A stretch of 34,956 nt of DNA from contig JACRAM010000107.1 of the NCBI GenBank assembly GCA_016213405.1, positions 1 to 34,956 on the forward strand, in the 5' to 3' direction. The translations under genes and the position numbers were made by a program. This document shows, in pieces, positions 2,914 to 34,513 of the stretch. Every line of letters begins with the position of its first letter. Positions within the stretch are counted from its first letter, which is position 1. The stretch is from Bacteroidota bacterium. Lineage in GTDB: Bacteria > Bacteroidota > Bacteroidia > Palsa-948. The notes beneath the pieces are model-generated. The model made no database searches and was not told the origin of the DNA. It worked only from the letters and a program-made list of their open reading frames with translations.

Positions 2914-3921
2914 TCAAGATGCCCTCATACAATTAACAATCTTCACCGCCTCTTTCGCTTCTTTCACATCATGCACTCTGAGAATGTTTGCTCCGTTCAT
3001 TAATGCAATGGTGTTGGCAGCGGTGGTTCCGTTAGCCCCCCTGCCCCCCGAAGGGGGGGGACTTGAGCGTGCATTCCTCTCCCCTTTGGGGAGAGAAGGA
3101 GAGGGGTCTGTTGCGTTACTTATCATTGATTTTCTTGAAAGCCCCGCAAGGATTGGCAAACCAAATTCTTTGAACTGGGCAAGATGTTTAAGCAGCGTGT
3201 AGTTATGCTCAAGAGTTTTTCCAAATCCAAATCCAACGTCAATTATTAATCTTCCATCCTTCCATCCTTCCAATATTCCAATCTTCTCTTTGAAGTATTC
3301 CTTCACTTCTTTCACCACATCTTTGTAGTGTGGATTCTTCTGCATCGTCTGCGGTGTTCCTTGTATGTGCATTAATACATACGGCACATTTAATTTAGCA
3401 ATTGTCTCAAACATTTTGGTTTCCGGTTTACGGTTTACCCCGTTGGAATTATTTCCTACGGGGTTTCCGGTCTCCGGTTGGTTGGCTGTTGAACCGTAGA
3501 CCGTAGACTGTAAACCGTAAAACATAAACCCGCTTCCTCCCGAAACGTCATTAATCATATCAGCTCCGGCATTCACGGCTTCTTCAGCAACTTTGCTTCT
3601 GAATGTGTCGGCAGAAATAATTACATCAGCAAATTTTTTTCGCACAAGTTGAATTGCCGGAATCAATCTTTTTAATTCTTCTTCTTCCGAAACTTCTTTG
3701 GCATTGGGTCGGGTAGAGCAGGCGCCAATGTCAACGATATCTGCCCCTTCAAAAACCATCTTTTCTACGTGAGAAAGTAAAGCCCCCTCCCCAGCCCTCC
3801 CCCCAAGGGAGAGGGAGAAATAATTTCCTCCATCGTAAAAAGAATCGGGAGTAACGTTGAGAATTCCCATTACGGCAGGAGAGGAGAGGTCGAGTATCTT
3901 GTTTTTAAATTGAAGATTCAT
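2914..3921 (-). CDS. folP: Dihydropteroate synthase with three in-frame repeat insertions
   Basis: Joins 6-hydroxymethyl-7,8-dihydropterin pyrophosphate to p-aminobenzoate in folate synthesis, in the cytoplasm. Family motifs appear in order: VMGILNVTPDSFYDGG near residue 18, ADIVDIGACSTRP, ISADTFRS, MINDVSGG, YVLMHIQGTPQTM, IDVGFGFGK, AGLSRKSMI and the C-terminal NILRVHDV. The length is 335 residues against about 270-280 usually. The surplus sits in three blocks that coincide with palindromic repeats: after the DGG loop (YFSLSLGGRAGEG), after MINDVSGG (about 38 residues including STANQPETGNPVGNN), and after SRKSMI (SPSLPKGERNARSSPPPSGG). All are in loops and the frame stays open, so the enzyme is probably active. 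It is divergent from the DUF1599 gene, a pairing I recall from other Bacteroidota. Confidence 0.95.
   Translation of the reverse strand: MNLQFKNKILDLSSPAVMGILNVTPDSFYDGGNYFSLSLGGRAGEGALLSHVEKMVFEGADIVDIGACSTRPNAKEVSEEEELKRLIPAIQLVRKKFADVIISADTFRSKVAEEAVNAGADMINDVSGGSGFMFYGLQSTVYGSTANQPETGNPVGNNSNGVNRKPETKMFETIAKLNVPYVLMHIQGTPQTMQKNPHYKDVVKEVKEYFKEKIGILEGWKDGRLIIDVGFGFGKTLEHNYTLLKHLAQFKEFGLPILAGLSRKSMISNATDPSPSLPKGERNARSSPPPSGGRGANGTTAANTIALMNGANILRVHDVKEAKEAVKIVNCMRAS
3034..3107 (-). repeat. Double-hairpin C element inside folP
   Basis: Read on the minus strand it has the same layout as the elements at 8381-8459 and 10445-10523. An outer stem (ACCCCT...AGGGGGGCT) encloses hairpin CTCTCCCCAAAGGGGAGAG, a linker with TGCACGCTCAAGTCC, and hairpin CCCCCCTTCGGGGGG. 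It falls between the SRKSMI motif and the NGTTAANTIALMNGANI segment of FolP, adding roughly 25 residues. Confidence 0.85.
3418..3522. repeat. TTTACGG-type composite element inside folP
   Basis: The left arm (3418-3471) carries GGTTTACGGTTT and an embedded CCCCGTTGGA...TCCTACGGGG palindrome at 3438-3463. The right arm (3493-3521) is nearly identical, 27 of 29 bases, to the sequence at 5135-5163 just after the four-helix-bundle gene. The left arm shares about 36 of 37 bases with 4677-4714. Only about 20 bases separate the arms here. It encodes the second in-frame insertion of FolP. Confidence 0.85.
3780..3825. repeat. Short CCCTCCC palindrome inside folP
   Basis: AAGCCCCCTCCCC followed by CCCTCCCCCCAAGGGAGAGGG and AGAAATAATTT. 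It matches the copy at 34469-34513, down to the trailing GGGA(G)AAATAAT. On the minus strand it encodes the first FolP insertion between the DGG loop and the helix before GADIVDIG. Confidence 0.8.
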
Positions 3922-3937
3922 GTTTTTAAAACTCTAA

Positions 3938-4060
3938 ACTCTAATTTCGAAATCCTAAACAAATTCTAAATTCAAATCTTTAAACTTTTAAACAATGTTT
4001 TTGATATTTGAATTTTAATATTGAGATTTGTTTAGAGTTTAGGATTTAGAATTTCGGATT
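3938..4060. repeat. AT-rich imperfect inverted repeat
   Basis: The folP/DUF1599 intergenic region (3922-4101) is mostly one large AT-rich imperfect palindrome. The left side contains CGAAATCCTAAACAAATTC and TAAATTCAAAT. The right side contains ATTTGAATTTTAAT and GTTTAGAGTTTAGGATTTAG, and ends in AATTTCGG. The words CTAAACTCTAAA/TTTAGAGTTTAG recur on both arms. It lies between two divergent genes and could affect either promoter. Confidence 0.65.
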
Positions 4061-4077
4061 TACTTTACTAAAAAGTT

Positions 4078-4656: not shown

Positions 4657-4657
4657 T

Positions 4658-4719
4658 GGTTTACGGTCTACTGTTTACAGTTTACCCCGTTGGAATTATT
4701 TCCTACGGGGTTTACGGTT
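4658..4719. repeat. Left arm of element around the four-helix-bundle gene
   Basis: GGTTTACGGTCTACTGTTTA and GTTTACC followed by the palindrome CCCCGTTGGA...TCCTACGGGG (4685-4710) and TTTACGGTT. The 26-bp palindrome is identical to 3438-3463 in folP. The arm begins directly after the DUF1599 stop codon and ends 14 bases before the next ATG. Confidence 0.85.
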
Positions 4720-4733
4720 AAATACAAAAGACA

Positions 4734-5135
4734 ATGGCAACATTTAAAAGATTCGAAGACATAGAAGCTTGGCAACTTGCTCGAGAAATTTCTAAGGAAG
4801 TTTACCAACTTTCAAGGGTTGGAGATTTTACTAAGGATTTTGAATTAAGAGGACAAGCGCGTGCTTCTTCTGGTTCGATGATGGATAACATAGCAGAAGG
4901 TTTTGACAGAGGAAGTAAGAATGAGTTTGTTCAGTTTCTCACAATTGGGAAAGGTTCCGCAGGAGAATTAAAATCTCAATTATACAGGTCATTAGATAAT
5001 CAATATATTTCTCAAATTGAATTTGAAAACCTTTATAACAAAACTGATAAGTATAGTAAAATGGTTGCTGGATTAATTTCTTATTTGAATCAGTCCAATA
5101 TCAAAGGACAAAAATTTAAAGACAGAGTGAATTAA
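4734..5135 (+). CDS. Four-helix-bundle protein (23S rRNA intervening-sequence type)
   Basis: 133 residues. It matches the four-helix-bundle family first seen as ORFs in 23S rRNA intervening sequences (TIGR02436 type): FEDIEAWQLAREISKEVY at the N-terminus, LRGQARASSGSMMDNIAEGF with the diagnostic 'S...NIAEG' turn, then GSKNEFVQFLTIGKGSAGEL and the C-terminal helices. The family is structurally related to the Avd accessory protein of diversity-generating retroelements; no reverse transcriptase is present here. The gene is inserted between DUF1599 and the DoxX gene, bounded by inverted TTTACGG-type repeats, and is smaller and more AT-rich than neighbouring housekeeping genes. No rRNA gene is nearby. 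Function unknown; cargo of a repeat-bounded unit is my inference. Confidence 0.9.
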   Translation: MATFKRFEDIEAWQLAREISKEVYQLSRVGDFTKDFELRGQARASSGSMMDNIAEGFDRGSKNEFVQFLTIGKGSAGELKSQLYRSLDNQYISQIEFENLYNKTDKYSKMVAGLISYLNQSNIKGQKFKDRVN

Positions 5136-5166
5136 CCGTAGACCAAAGACTGTAAACCGTAAACCC
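5136..5166. repeat. Right arm of element around the four-helix-bundle gene
   Basis: CCGTAGACCAAAGACTGTAA followed by ACCGTAAACCC, running from the stop codon of the four-helix-bundle gene to the base before the ATG of the DoxX gene. Its reverse complement begins GGGTTTACGGTTTACAG, matching the start of the left arm. Nearly identical to 3493-3521 within folP. Confidence 0.85.
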
Positions 5167-5167
5167 T

Positions 5168-7868: not shown

Positions 7869-8735
7869 ATGAGAAAAAAAATAGTTGCAGGTAACTGGAA
7901 GATGAACAATACCCACAAGGAAGGGATGGAACTTCTTGTGGAATTGTTTGAATTATTGGAAAGAGAAGAATATCTTCTTGAAGGCACCGAAAAGAAACTT
8001 CCGGAAGTCGTTATCGCTCCCCCTTTTATTCTTCTTTCCGATGCTGCCGGATTAGTGCAGGCATGGGAAACAAAAATTGCAGCGCAGAATTGCTCATCAG
8101 AAAACAATGGAGCTTACACAGGAGAAGTTTCCGCTTCTATGCTCAAATCAATTAATATTGATTATGTAATCATCGGGCATTCCGAGCGAAGAAATTATTT
8201 TAATGAAACAAATCAAATTGCAGCCAAGAAGATTTCGCTCGCTCTTGAAAATAATATATCTGTGATTTGCTGTATTGGTGAAACTCTTTCTGAAAGAGAA
8301 TCGGGAAAGCAATTTCAAGTTATCACTCACCAGTTGGAAGAATGCTTGTTTCATTTGAGCAATGATCAAATGATAAAGAAAGCCCATCCCCAACCCTTCC
8401 CGAAGGGAAGGGAGCAAGAACAACAAGTCCTCCCCTTGGGGGAGGATTTAGATGGGGCCGCTGTTGTTATCGCCTATGAACCCGTGTGGGCAATTGGTAC
8501 AGGAAAAAATGCAACTCCCGAGCTGGCGCAGGAAATGCACCACTACATCAGGTCTGTTATGTCTGGTAAATTCGGAAAAGAAATTTCAGATAGCATTTCT
8601 ATTCTCTATGGCGGAAGCTGCAACCCGAAAAATGCGAAACTAATTTTTTCTCAACCCGATGTGGATGGTGGACTTATTGGAGGAGCTTCGCTCATCGCAA
8701 AAGATTTTGTGGAAGTGATTAAAGCTGCAATTTAA
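7869..8735 (+). CDS. tpiA: Triosephosphate isomerase with an in-frame repeat insertion
   Basis: Interconverts dihydroxyacetone phosphate and glyceraldehyde 3-phosphate in glycolysis. All active-site elements are present: GNWKMN with Lys11, IIGHSERRNYF with His104, AYEPVWAIGTGK with catalytic Glu204, YGGSCNPKNA and the phosphate-binding GGLIGGASL. The length is 288 residues against about 250. The spacing from the catalytic His to the Glu is 100 residues rather than about 70 in well-known enzymes. The extra residues (AHPQPFPKGREQEQQVLPLG and flanks, about residues 171-195) are encoded exactly by the palindromic element at 8381-8459, just before the strand leading to the catalytic Glu. The frame is intact, so the enzyme is probably tolerated as an extended loop. 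Ends with a 4-base convergent overlap with pruA. Confidence 0.95.
   Translation: MRKKIVAGNWKMNNTHKEGMELLVELFELLEREEYLLEGTEKKLPEVVIAPPFILLSDAAGLVQAWETKIAAQNCSSENNGAYTGEVSASMLKSINIDYVIIGHSERRNYFNETNQIAAKKISLALENNISVICCIGETLSERESGKQFQVITHQLEECLFHLSNDQMIKKAHPQPFPKGREQEQQVLPLGEDLDGAAVVIAYEPVWAIGTGKNATPELAQEMHHYIRSVMSGKFGKEISDSISILYGGSCNPKNAKLIFSQPDVDGGLIGGASLIAKDFVEVIKAAI
8381..8459 (+). repeat. 79-bp double-hairpin C element inside tpiA
   Basis: An outer stem (AGCCCATC / GATGGGGC) encloses CCCTTCCCGAAGGGAAGGG and TCCTCCCCTTGGGGGAGGA. It aligns gap-free over 79 bases with 10445-10523, about 60 identical by eye. Stem differences are largely paired (CCCTTCCC/GGGAAGGG here, CTCTCCCC/GGGGAGAG there), while most unpaired differences fall in the linker. 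Confidence 0.9.
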
Positions 8736-10429: not shown

Positions 10430-10444
10430 GATATAAATATTAGA

Positions 10445-10523
10445 AGCCCCTCTCCAACTCTCCCCGAAGGGGAGAGAGTTGCGCGTGAAAGTCCTCCCCT
10501 TCGGGGAGGATTTAGGTGGGGCT
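10445..10523 (+). repeat. 79-bp double-hairpin C element, intergenic copy
   Basis: Fills most of the pruA-apaG gap (10430-10531). It carries outer stem AGCCCC / GGGGCT, hairpin CTCTCCCCGAAGGGGAGAG and hairpin TCCTCCCCTTCGGGGAGGA. It is the undisturbed reference for the copies inside tpiA and folP. It lies upstream of the pruA start and could form a hairpin in the transcript from apaG into pruA. Confidence 0.9.
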
Positions 10524-10531
10524 TGTGGTTT

Positions 10532-10918
10532 TTAGTTTAATCGTTGTGGTGCTATAAGTTTGAATTCAGGAATCTCTACATAAAATTTTTCTTTGTCAAT
10601 GATGCGCATCATCTGGTAAATACCTTTCATCTTTCCCATATCAGTTACAAGATTGCAGGCAGATTCATATTCAAAAATTTCGTTTGGAGTCAGAACGGGC
10701 TGTTGGCCAACTACACCATCACCTTCCACAACCCGATGCTCACCGTTCGAATCAAAAATATTCCACTGCCTGCGAAGCAGTTGTACGGAATATTCGCTTC
10801 TGTTCTCTATGAGGATTTTGTAAGTAAAAAGAAAGTGCCGCATCTCGGGGCGGGAATGCATCGGCTGAAACTGAGTTCGTACCGTTATCTTTACTCCTTT
10901 GGTGATTTGTGTTACCAT
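10532..10918 (-). CDS. apaG: ApaG domain protein
   Basis: 128 residues, the usual length for ApaG. The family pattern is clear: VKITVRTQFQP, FLFTYKILIENRSEYSVQLL, RRQWNIFDSNGEHRVVEGDG, VVGQQPVLTPNEIFEYES and MKGIYQMM. ApaG forms an immunoglobulin/fibronectin-like beta sandwich. It was named for a link to Co2+ resistance in enterobacteria, but its biochemical role is unsettled. Cytoplasmic. The gene lies 38 bases downstream of the T9SS cargo gene on the same strand, with no convincing terminator between. Confidence 0.95.
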   Translation of the reverse strand: MVTQITKGVKITVRTQFQPMHSRPEMRHFLFTYKILIENRSEYSVQLLRRQWNIFDSNGEHRVVEGDGVVGQQPVLTPNEIFEYESACNLVTDMGKMKGIYQMMRIIDKEKFYVEIPEFKLIAPQRLN

Positions 10919-32103: not shown

Positions 32104-33678
32104 TCAGTTGTCTGTGATTACTAATTTGTCTGCCGTGATTATTTTATTGTCTTGTGTTATGCGAATAAAATACAGTCCGCTTCGTAAATTGTCTCGGTGA
32201 AAAATAATTGTCTGTCCCGCGAGATTGTCTATTTGTTTAACTGTCTGCCCGTACAAATTGTAAACTGTCAAGGTGGCGTTTTTGAAAAACTTGTCTGTCT
32301 GCAAAGTTGTCTGTGTGGAAAAAGGATTTGGATAAATGCTGATTATATTCTTTTGTTCAATTTCATTTACTCCATTCGCAAAACAAAGCGTAGTTACTGC
32401 TCCTCCCGTTCCTGTTTGGGTTGGAGGATTTTTAGCAATTCCCCCTGACGAAACCTGTGTGGCAGGATTTGTAACTGTTGTTGTCGTAGCCTTTGTAATC
32501 GTATTTGTATTACCCTCATTACAGCCACTGTTTCCATTGGAATCGCATTTGATTAAATAAATATCAAAGAAAGGATCGAAACTCCAAGTACTTCCTGAAA
32601 TAACATATCCTCCATCGCTGGTTTGCTGAATCTGAGAACTCCAGTCAGAGCCTGTTCCACCAAAGGATTTGCCCCACAAGGAATTTCCATTTCCATCTGT
32701 CTTGATTAAATATACATCATTACTGCCCGCGCTAAAACTAGAAGTACTTCCTGCAATAACGAATCCTCCATCGCTGGTTTGCTGAACCGCAGAACCTACG
32801 TCACTACTTATTCCACCAAGGGTTTTTGTCCATAAGGTATCTCCATTTCCATCGGTCTTAATTAAATAAACATCTTCACCGCCTGCACCAAAACTATAAG
32901 TGCCTCCTGCAATGATATATCCTCCATCGGTAGTTTGTTGAACAGAATATCCAAAGTCCATACCTGACCCGCCAAAGGTCTTTGTCCACAAGGAGTTTCC
33001 ACTTGCATCGCTTCTGATTAAATAGACATCATAGGAACCTGCACCGAAACTTTGAGTATTTCCTACAATTATATATCCTCCATCTGTTGTTTGTTGAACT
33101 GAAGAAGCCACGTCACCATTTATCCCTCCAAAGGATTTTCCCCATACGATATTTGCATTTCCGTCTGTCTTGATTAAATAAACATCCTCCCAACCTGCAC
33201 TAAAATTCATAGTGCTTCCTGCAATAATAAATCCTCCATCGGAAGTTTGTAGAATCGAGGAGCCTACATCATCAGCTACTCCACCAAGGATTTTTGTCCA
33301 TAATGTATCACCAATGGAATTGGTTTTTATTAAATAAATATCTTCACCATTACCCGGACTGAAACTCATTGTAGTTCCTGCAATAATATATCCACCATCT
33401 GTGGTTTGTAGAACAGAAGATCCATCATCATTTCCTACTCCACCAAAGGTCTTTGTCCACAAAGTATCTCCATTGGTTGTGGTCTTGATTAAATATACAT
33501 CTCCAGTAAAGTTGGAATTTTGAAAACGCCCTACCATAATATAACCTCCATCGGAAGTTTGCTGAACGGAATATCCTTGGTCGTTTTTTGCTCCTCCATA
33601 AGTTTTCTGAAAAGTTGTCTGTCCGTACACAGTTGTCAATATGAGAAAAGCTGTCAGGCAGAGTAGGAGTTGTCTCAT
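32104..33678 (-). CDS. T9SS-secreted protein with seven beta-propeller-like repeats
   Basis: 524 residues from ATG 33678, chosen for the signal peptide MRQLLLCLTAFLILTTVYGQ; an upstream open stretch lacks one and overlaps a repeat. Seven units of about 52 residues follow the pattern 'TFGG...D.G.SVQQT.DGGYIIAG.T.SF..G..DVYLIKTD.NGD.LWTK', at about residues 21-390. Seven copies with this strand layout fit a seven-bladed propeller. After a Thr-rich linker comes the type A sorting domain: ISIYPNPFSTQTTLQTDKFF, TLTVYNLYGQTVKQID, LRSGLYFIRI and the final KLVITDN. The protein is expected to be exported by T9SS and then attached or released. Ligand unknown; similar proteins often act as adhesive or recognition surfaces. 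Confidence 0.92.
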   Translation of the reverse strand: MRQLLLCLTAFLILTTVYGQTTFQKTYGGAKNDQGYSVQQTSDGGYIMVGRFQNSNFTGDVYLIKTTTNGDTLWTKTFGGVGNDDGSSVLQTTDGGYIIAGTTMSFSPGNGEDIYLIKTNSIGDTLWTKILGGVADDVGSSILQTSDGGFIIAGSTMNFSAGWEDVYLIKTDGNANIVWGKSFGGINGDVASSVQQTTDGGYIIVGNTQSFGAGSYDVYLIRSDASGNSLWTKTFGGSGMDFGYSVQQTTDGGYIIAGGTYSFGAGGEDVYLIKTDGNGDTLWTKTLGGISSDVGSAVQQTSDGGFVIAGSTSSFSAGSNDVYLIKTDGNGNSLWGKSFGGTGSDWSSQIQQTSDGGYVISGSTWSFDPFFDIYLIKCDSNGNSGCNEGNTNTITKATTTTVTNPATQVSSGGIAKNPPTQTGTGGAVTTLCFANGVNEIEQKNIISIYPNPFSTQTTLQTDKFFKNATLTVYNLYGQTVKQIDNLAGQTIIFHRDNLRSGLYFIRITQDNKIITADKLVITDN

Positions 33679-34084: not shown

Positions 34085-34464
34085 CTGTCAGCCGAAAGAT
34101 GCCGTTAAAAGTTGTCAGGGTATGCGAGATGGTCGGGATAAGAAACGCTGTCCCCCGAAAGTTGCTGTTAATGTTACTGTCCAGATGCGAAGTTGTCGGG
34201 AAAAGATTGTCTATGCTTGAGCCGAACCTGACAATGCTTCGGTCAAACCTGTCAATGCTTCCGACCAGATGCGCTATGCTTGAGTCAAGATGCGCTATGT
34301 TTTACTCAAGATGGTCTATGCTAAGGTCAGACCCCGCAATGCTTAGGTCAAGATATGACATGCTGTCAACGAGATATGCTATGCTGTCAACGAACCTGTC
34401 AATGCTTCGGGCAAGATATGACATGCTGTCAACGGGAAGGGCTATGCTTGGGTTTTTTCGTCAA
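34085..34464 (-). repeat. 21-bp-period array encoding degenerate heptads (probable coiled-coil pseudogene)
   Basis: From 34213 on, an ATGCT (once ATGTT) recurs exactly every 21 bases at 34213, 34234, 34255 and so on to 34444, twelve times. The other 16 bases of each unit vary. More diverged units with the same period continue down to about 34085. On the minus strand each unit is a heptad with Ser-Ile (or Met) then Leu or Phe three residues later: SIDRFVD, SIAYLVD, SMSYLDL, SIDHLE-stop, NIAHLDS, SIAHLVG, SIDRFDR, SIDNLFP, TTSHLDS, NINSNFR. Ile and Leu spaced 3 then 4 is the a/d pattern of a coiled coil. One unit carries TAA, and no start codon was found, so the reading frame is probably decayed. 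Confidence 0.8.
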
Positions 34465-34468
34465 AAAC

Positions 34469-34513
34469 AAGCCCCCTCCCTTTATCCCTCCCCCAAAGGG
34501 AGAGGGAAATAAT
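34469..34513. repeat. Short CCCTCCC palindrome, intergenic copy
   Basis: AAGCCCCCTCCCTTTATCCC followed by TCCCCCAAAGGGAGAGGGA and AATAAT. It is the partner of the copy inside folP at 3780-3825. It lies between the 21-bp array and the end of the partial gene at 34517, where the hairpin could also serve as its terminator. Confidence 0.8.

Follow-up and report, generated by a model that had tools for sequence, protein, structure and literature searches.

Within the window, i.e. the whole stretch of 34,956 nucleotides analysed here, folP (2914-3921, minus strand) encodes a dihydropteroate synthase of 335 amino acids. An earlier note on this DNA claimed that FolP is ~60 residues too long and that all of the extra length lies in three blocks, each coinciding with a DNA palindrome. 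The locus raises the question of how these residues entered the protein and whether the enzyme withstands them. We aligned FolP with syntenic orthologues from six other species of the genus, which are ~70% identical in FolP and in which folP still lies beside the DUF1599-like and BT_3928 genes. The alignment confirmed the claim: about 60 residues are missing in the congeners, and the gaps fall exactly on block 1 (3780-3825, about residues 33-47), block 2 (3418-3534, about residues 130-166) and block 3 (3034-3117, about residues 269-296), with a net gain of ~8, ~35 and ~17 amino acids, respectively. In one congener, G003, all three blocks are absent. The blocks, as well as the palindromes and repeat arms described below, are given without strand.

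In a profile search FolP scored 283 bits against TIGR01496 (cut-off 162.6), with the match split in two around block 2, and the catalytic-type residues N22, D105, N124, D228, K264, R315 and H317 are invariant across 25 Bacteroidota FolPs. By both the equivalog cut-off and the catalytic residues the protein is a dihydropteroate synthase, and its motifs are intact, as the earlier note had held. An AF2 model built from the window FolP and 24 Bacteroidota FolPs has a complete barrel in which pLDDT drops below 50 only at residues 30-32, 38-40, 129-163 and 270-296, i.e. at the three blocks. The model matches DHPS 3tyz with a TMt of 0.91, and the closest solved structures are all DHPS. The barrel is predicted to be intact and the inserts to be disordered surface loops, which agrees with the loop positions suggested before. 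In 80 other Bacteroidota FolPs the matched span is about 780-828 bp, and distant orthologues with the same extra residues were not seen. No second folP that could do the work was found in the genome (draft, 127 contigs, 95% complete), and the long FolP is probably made and active.

Repeat families inside folP and other genes

Exploring the DNA of the blocks, we found three repeat families, as expected, but not one per block: blocks 1 and 3 share a CT-rich hairpin family, and block 2, previously described as one palindrome, is a repeat insert composed of a heptad-repeat hairpin of the GTTTAC family that carries no gene and of a second palindrome, R1, nested in it. The left heptad arm of block 2 (3418-3437, GGTTTCC GGTTTAC GGTTTA, repeat D15) is followed directly by R1 (3438-3463, CCCCGTTGGAATTATTTCCTACGGGG), the flanks of which are imperfect here (TTTA/TTTC), and the right arm (3492-3522, ACCGTAGACCGTAGACTGTAAACCGTAAA) contains the complement of TTTACGG-TTTACAG-TCTACGG-TCTACGG. 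Each block coincides with a repeat that has relatives elsewhere: positions 3418-3471 are 91% identical to 4665-4718 and the right arm is 93% identical to 5134-5163; R1 occurs 40 times genome-wide (control 0); and the CT-rich hairpin core CCTCCCCNNNGGGGAGG (up to 2 mismatches) has 272 copies compared with 4 in the control. When folded as RNA, block 2 gives a hairpin of high stability (-48 kcal/mol; z -6.0 relative to shuffled sequence) and block 3, made of two CT-rich hairpins, also folds better than shuffled sequence (z -2.6). Block 1 is a copy of the CT family, but a partial one, and its fold does not surpass that of shuffled sequence (z +0.5). Directly upstream of the folP start (3923-4074) lies another gene-less hairpin of the heptad type (AAACTCT AAACTCT AATTTCG AAATCCT ...). 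Complete or partial CT-rich double-hairpin elements are also present between genes at 10434-10534 and 34453-34507.

Comparable in-frame inserts were found in PabB, TpiA, RsmA, an MsbA-like transporter, pyruvate carboxylase, UbiA and UvrA. The triose-phosphate isomerase gene tpiA (7869-8735, plus strand) carries a CT-family insert of 28 residues (about 8370-8455) that is clean in the alignment and absent in all six congeners. Pyruvate carboxylase has ~40 extra CT-family residues (the profile advances from 279 to 287 while the protein advances from 281 to 331), and PabB has two more CT blocks, one of them at a loop where G003 has a CT insert of its own. In RsmA an R1 copy with repeat arms lies just before the NFPY motif, and the MsbA-like transporter and UvrA carry R1 or heptad inserts, those of UvrA being heptads. 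In-frame inserts are therefore tolerated genome-wide, which bears out the tolerance, though not the recruitment, of repeat insertion into coding DNA that the earlier note suggested.

R1 (consensus CCCCGTWGGAANNNNTTCCWACGGGG, 26 bp) also has a variant form, with concerted changes of the inner pairs (GGAA/TTCC to GGAT/ATCC). None of the six congeners carries it, and any one of 18 further relatives has two copies at most. Identical 4 bp flank both sides of R1 in 21 of the 40 copies, whereas 10,000 shuffles gave 4.9 such copies on average and 12 at most. The identity never extends to five bases; some copies share longer flanks and hence are not independent. In pabB, the site is empty and reads GA(A/G)ATAAATCC in the DNA of two congeners, and it reads GAAATAAA-CCCCGTAGGAAATAATTCCAACGGGG-TAAATCC in the window genome. 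The insertion adds exactly ten residues (NPVGNNSNGV) and duplicates TAAA; none of the six congeners has these residues. Comparison shows a target duplication by R1 of 4 bp, of the form TNNR. Copies with TTTG flanks (L321, L322, L323 and L312 of G000) share the longer flank TTTGCGCGARGGATTG and form a larger composite repeat.

Long ORFs contain more than half of the R1 copies (21/40); these share one reading frame, 19 of the 21 are on the strand encoding ...SNG, and they read as xPVGxxSNG-like peptides. In most copies the opposite strand could be read through in any of its three frames. Given that 26 bp of palindrome and 4 bp of target copy make 30 bp, i.e. ten codons, an R1 insertion cannot shift the frame, and the encoded peptide is a soluble turn (xPVGNxSNG). 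This frame neutrality, together with the coding-strand bias, accounts for the survival of R1 without an adaptive use. Translation of the inserts in FolP or PabB would yield peptides such as NPVGNNSNGVNR. Several further R1 copies lie in C-terminal regions that, judged by eye, resemble type IX secretion sorting domains.

Heptad-repeat arms and S23p genes

The copy of block 2 located 1.2 kb from it belongs to a full element (4657-5167, plus strand) that fills the gap between the DUF1599-like and BT_3928 genes and whose arms are 91-93% identical to those of block 2. Its left heptad arm (4659-4684) reads GTTTACG GTCTACT GTTTACA GTTTA and has an R1 copy (4685-4710) nested in it, between two direct repeats of TTTA (4 bp); the right arm occupies 5134-5163. 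Between the arms, a gene (4734-5135, plus strand) encodes a four-helix-bundle protein of 133 aa that belongs to the S23p/IVP family (TIGR02436, 97 bits, cut-off 24) and matches PDB 2gsc (E 1.6e-8) and 2rld. The S23p family is not known to have an enzyme activity. Folded as RNA, the full element pairs its two arms (z -5.9), like the IVSs of 23S rRNA; at Rfam thresholds no known RNA family was found in the window.

Comparing the same junction between species revealed its possible history. The DUF1599-like and BT_3928 genes overlap in G006 and are separated by 3 bp in G005 and by 6 bp in G001; gene-less repeat arms of 129 and 114 bp occupy the junction in G004 and G002, respectively, a short remnant of 41 bp is present in G003, and the window genome carries the whole element. 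This pattern fits an insertion that would have been followed by gene loss, the alternative being separate insertions. The FolP loop that holds block 2 has changed as well: G003 has no repeat there, G002 has a different heptad hairpin, and G001, G004, G005 and G006 have GTCAYYCCGAGC- or GTCATTGTGAGC-type palindromes, which look like candidate CGTC-type REPs. A single loop of an essential enzyme has thus acquired repeats of different kinds in six of the seven species, i.e. five of the six congeners and the window genome. Comparison shows that the inserts are later arrivals, as the earlier note had inferred: with all blocks missing in G003 and R1 absent from the six congeners, insertion took place after species divergence, with R1 target duplication and with the reading frame left open.

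Arms of this kind recur at other four-helix-bundle genes. The genome has 23 such genes (TIGR02436), and their flanks showed inverted repeats whose degenerate units, 7 or 8 nt long, differ in nearly every element. In the window genome and relatives of its class (Bacteroidia), a significant flanking inverted repeat was found at 86 of 108 four-helix genes, compared with 1 of 100 control ORFs, and no arms were detectable at the remaining 22. The period was clear in 83 cases, being 7 in 57 and 8 in 20; the median outer length of the element is 466 bp and the median arm has 4.4 units. Between genomes, arm similarity rises with protein identity (r 0.39, compared with 0.06 +/- 0.03 in within-genome permutations; reached in 0 of 500), and in one cross-family pair the proteins are 86% identical and have the same TCGGTAA arms in unrelated flanks. 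The same layout was seen in plasmids of both Riemerella and cyanobacteria (GGGAAAA, AACAGGG and GTGTAGG units) and in 13 of 18 viral contigs. The association supports the conclusion that the heptad arms and the four-helix gene are one unit. A hairpin census of part of the genome, covering about 786 kb of long contigs and repeat neighbourhoods, found a period of 7 or 8 in 32 of 45 inverted repeats with internal periodicity (control 0), most of them without a gene. Period 7 versus 8 was rejected as a strict clade property: same-period pairs exceeded chance only above 50% identity (0.83 versus 0.64) and not below it. Four-helix elements are clustered within a few kb, in an array-like manner, at L208, L268 and L237 (G015 contig C2, 45-49 kb) and on G034 contig C1. 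In a CRISPR-cas locus of a Pseudanabaena plasmid (L309), a four-helix gene between cas6 and cas4 has long, near-perfect heptad arrays (AAAGCTA/AAAGCCA) on both sides, in direct orientation.

Origin of the inserts and relation to known repeats

The interpretation given in the earlier note is supported, and we consider it very probable that small mobile palindromic elements have entered folP at least three times, were kept in frame and are translated as loops, the heptad/S23p model being part of this reading. Blocks 1 and 3 would be copies of a CT-rich double-hairpin element. Block 2 would derive from a heptad-repeat element but lack the gene, which in the full form encodes an S23p-type protein, and R1 would have entered the arm of block 2 later; every R1 insertion would add the palindrome and one target copy, exactly 30 bp. 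The heptad element would consist of an S23p gene between inverted arms of ~4-5 units, a unit measuring 7 or 8 nt, and would spread between bacteria, arms and protein evolving together. The S23p pentamer may bind the units in the arms of its own element, with perhaps one unit for each subunit, the protein would be needed for movement or RNA processing, and gene-less hairpins would arise by internal deletion. Insertions would be widespread, with selection keeping those in loops or between genes. On balance, we also lean towards the broader view that S23p genes are the coding part of widespread small mobile elements that have protein-specific arrays of 7 or 8 nt as ends, that 23S rRNA IVSs, the heptamers of cyanobacteria and Xanthomonas and many in-frame inserts of Bacteroidota are whole or gene-less copies of them, and that the pentamer reads about one unit per subunit.

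Ordinary expansion of loops in this lineage, with the palindromes as a by-product of codon choice, is favoured by the variable loop lengths of this enzyme family and by the fold of block 1, which is no better than that of shuffled sequence. It is highly improbable, given that the same DNA is present in dozens to hundreds of dispersed copies in and outside genes and absent from the orthologues, and given the exactness of both the 4-bp duplications and the empty site of pabB; for block 2 the repeat copies and the congeners already refute it. We give equally little credence to excision of the inserts from the mRNA, as in 23S rRNA IVSs, with rejoining that would yield an enzyme of normal length. 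Block 2 is a very stable RNA hairpin by energy and z score, and IVS hairpins are RNase III substrates, but the inserts are all in frame and open, which would be needless if they were removed, and known IVS removal leaves the RNA fragmented rather than rejoined (PMC4990558). Since the arms lie at the 5' and 3' sides of the gene and would pair in the mRNA, and since many solo hairpins are intergenic, the arms could instead be regulatory hairpins of the four-helix genes (terminators, attenuators or autoregulatory sites) and the solo hairpins unrelated regulatory hairpins that were copied. This we find unlikely: the arms travel with the gene across bacterial families into unrelated flanks, the site is empty in three congeners, and solo hairpins of the same sequence type lie in coding genes (folP, uvrA).

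All palindromes, R1 included, might also be REP-type repeats moved by Y1 (RAYT) transposases. The genome has eight Y1 genes, several with flanking palindromes of their own, but those read carry other palindromes, with no R1, heptad or complete CT element directly flanking them; none of the three families was linked to a transposase, and among the Y1 genes examined no autonomous partner with ends matching R1 was seen. Y1-type movement is not expected to generate 4-bp duplications such as those of R1, in which, moreover, GTAG is internal and not terminal. Although intragenic REPs are known (PMC3733652), we regard such an origin as rather doubtful, and Y1 transposases are unlikely movers of R1, the flanks of those read carrying other palindromes. 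Three of the Y1 genes (L080, L079 and L081; G000 contigs C29, C125 and C50) have their own palindromes, CCACGACCTnnAGGTCGTGG, CGTCCCATAGGGACG and ACTCCG..., which differ from gene to gene and resemble REP/RAYT pairs. Movement driven by a reverse transcriptase, by analogy with Avd of diversity-generating retroelements, was rejected as well, there being no RVT_1 match in the genome.

Insertion of mobile palindromes, our preferred reading, has known counterparts. Rickettsia palindromic elements (RPEs) are short palindromic DNAs that lie in frame in many conserved genes and are translated, and RPE-1-bearing proteins are expressed in R. conorii (PMC3733652). The likeness drawn in the earlier note holds for behaviour, in-frame insertion in many conserved genes being found here too, but need not extend to descent. 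The phylum here is another one, R1 has a 4-bp duplication and a fixed footprint of 30 bp, and one family is tied to a coding element. Intragenic REPs, known from several groups, are palindromes of 20-40 bp in high copy number that occur in frame in uvrA and further genes, and different repeats occupy about the same recB site in related Xanthomonas (PMC3733652). The repeats described here are alike in palindrome length, copy number, in-frame uvrA copies and changing repeats at one site; unlike REPs, which have a GTAG or CGTC tag at one end of the palindrome, R1 ends in CCCC/GGGG with GTAG inside, and no transposase of the REP type was found beside it. Like MITEs, R1 is short, palindromic and target-duplicating, but it has only 26 bp and no autonomous partner was identified.

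The 23S rRNA IVS of Coxiella measures 428 nt; its stem has 28 bp, and its S23p ORF is preceded by tandem heptamers (GACAGAT). The origin of this IVS was called unclear, and the S23p protein of Xanthomonas is a homopentamer (PMC4990558). The heptad elements share the size (~430-470 bp), a terminal inverted-repeat stem (28 bp = 4 x 7 in Coxiella), one S23p ORF and heptamers, but they are free-standing between or inside protein genes, number many per genome and have diverse arms and gene-less forms; the window element has its S23p ORF within terminal inverted repeats and lies between two protein genes, not inside a 23S rRNA gene. Heptameric repeats of Xanthomonas, Nostoc and Calothrix, for which no source was given, prefer about four units and form many inverted pairs in Xanthomonas (PMC4692102). 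Those repeats were reported as G-rich and tandem and were not linked to S23p genes, whereas the arms described here are often AT-rich and degenerate. Heptamers were reportedly noted in RNase P RNA by Vioque in 1997. A search of the open-licence literature gave neither an account of S23p elements that stand free and have heptad arms nor a paper joining these systems. The in-frame palindromes are thus a new case of known behaviour, and their link to heptad/S23p elements seems new. R1 illustrates how a mobile repeat can be safe in genes, by whole codons and a soluble turn. The elements offer a testable origin for 23S rRNA IVSs and bacterial heptameric repeats, both tied to the S23p family of unknown function, and the matched sets of proteins and arms provide a ready test of recognition specificity.

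Further repeats are present in the window. Two hairpins with ACAGATA-type units (15-100 and 508-593) are inverted relative to each other, and a single ORF contains six to seven direct repeats of ~156 nt (32531-33505) that are 69-81% alike in their conserved part.
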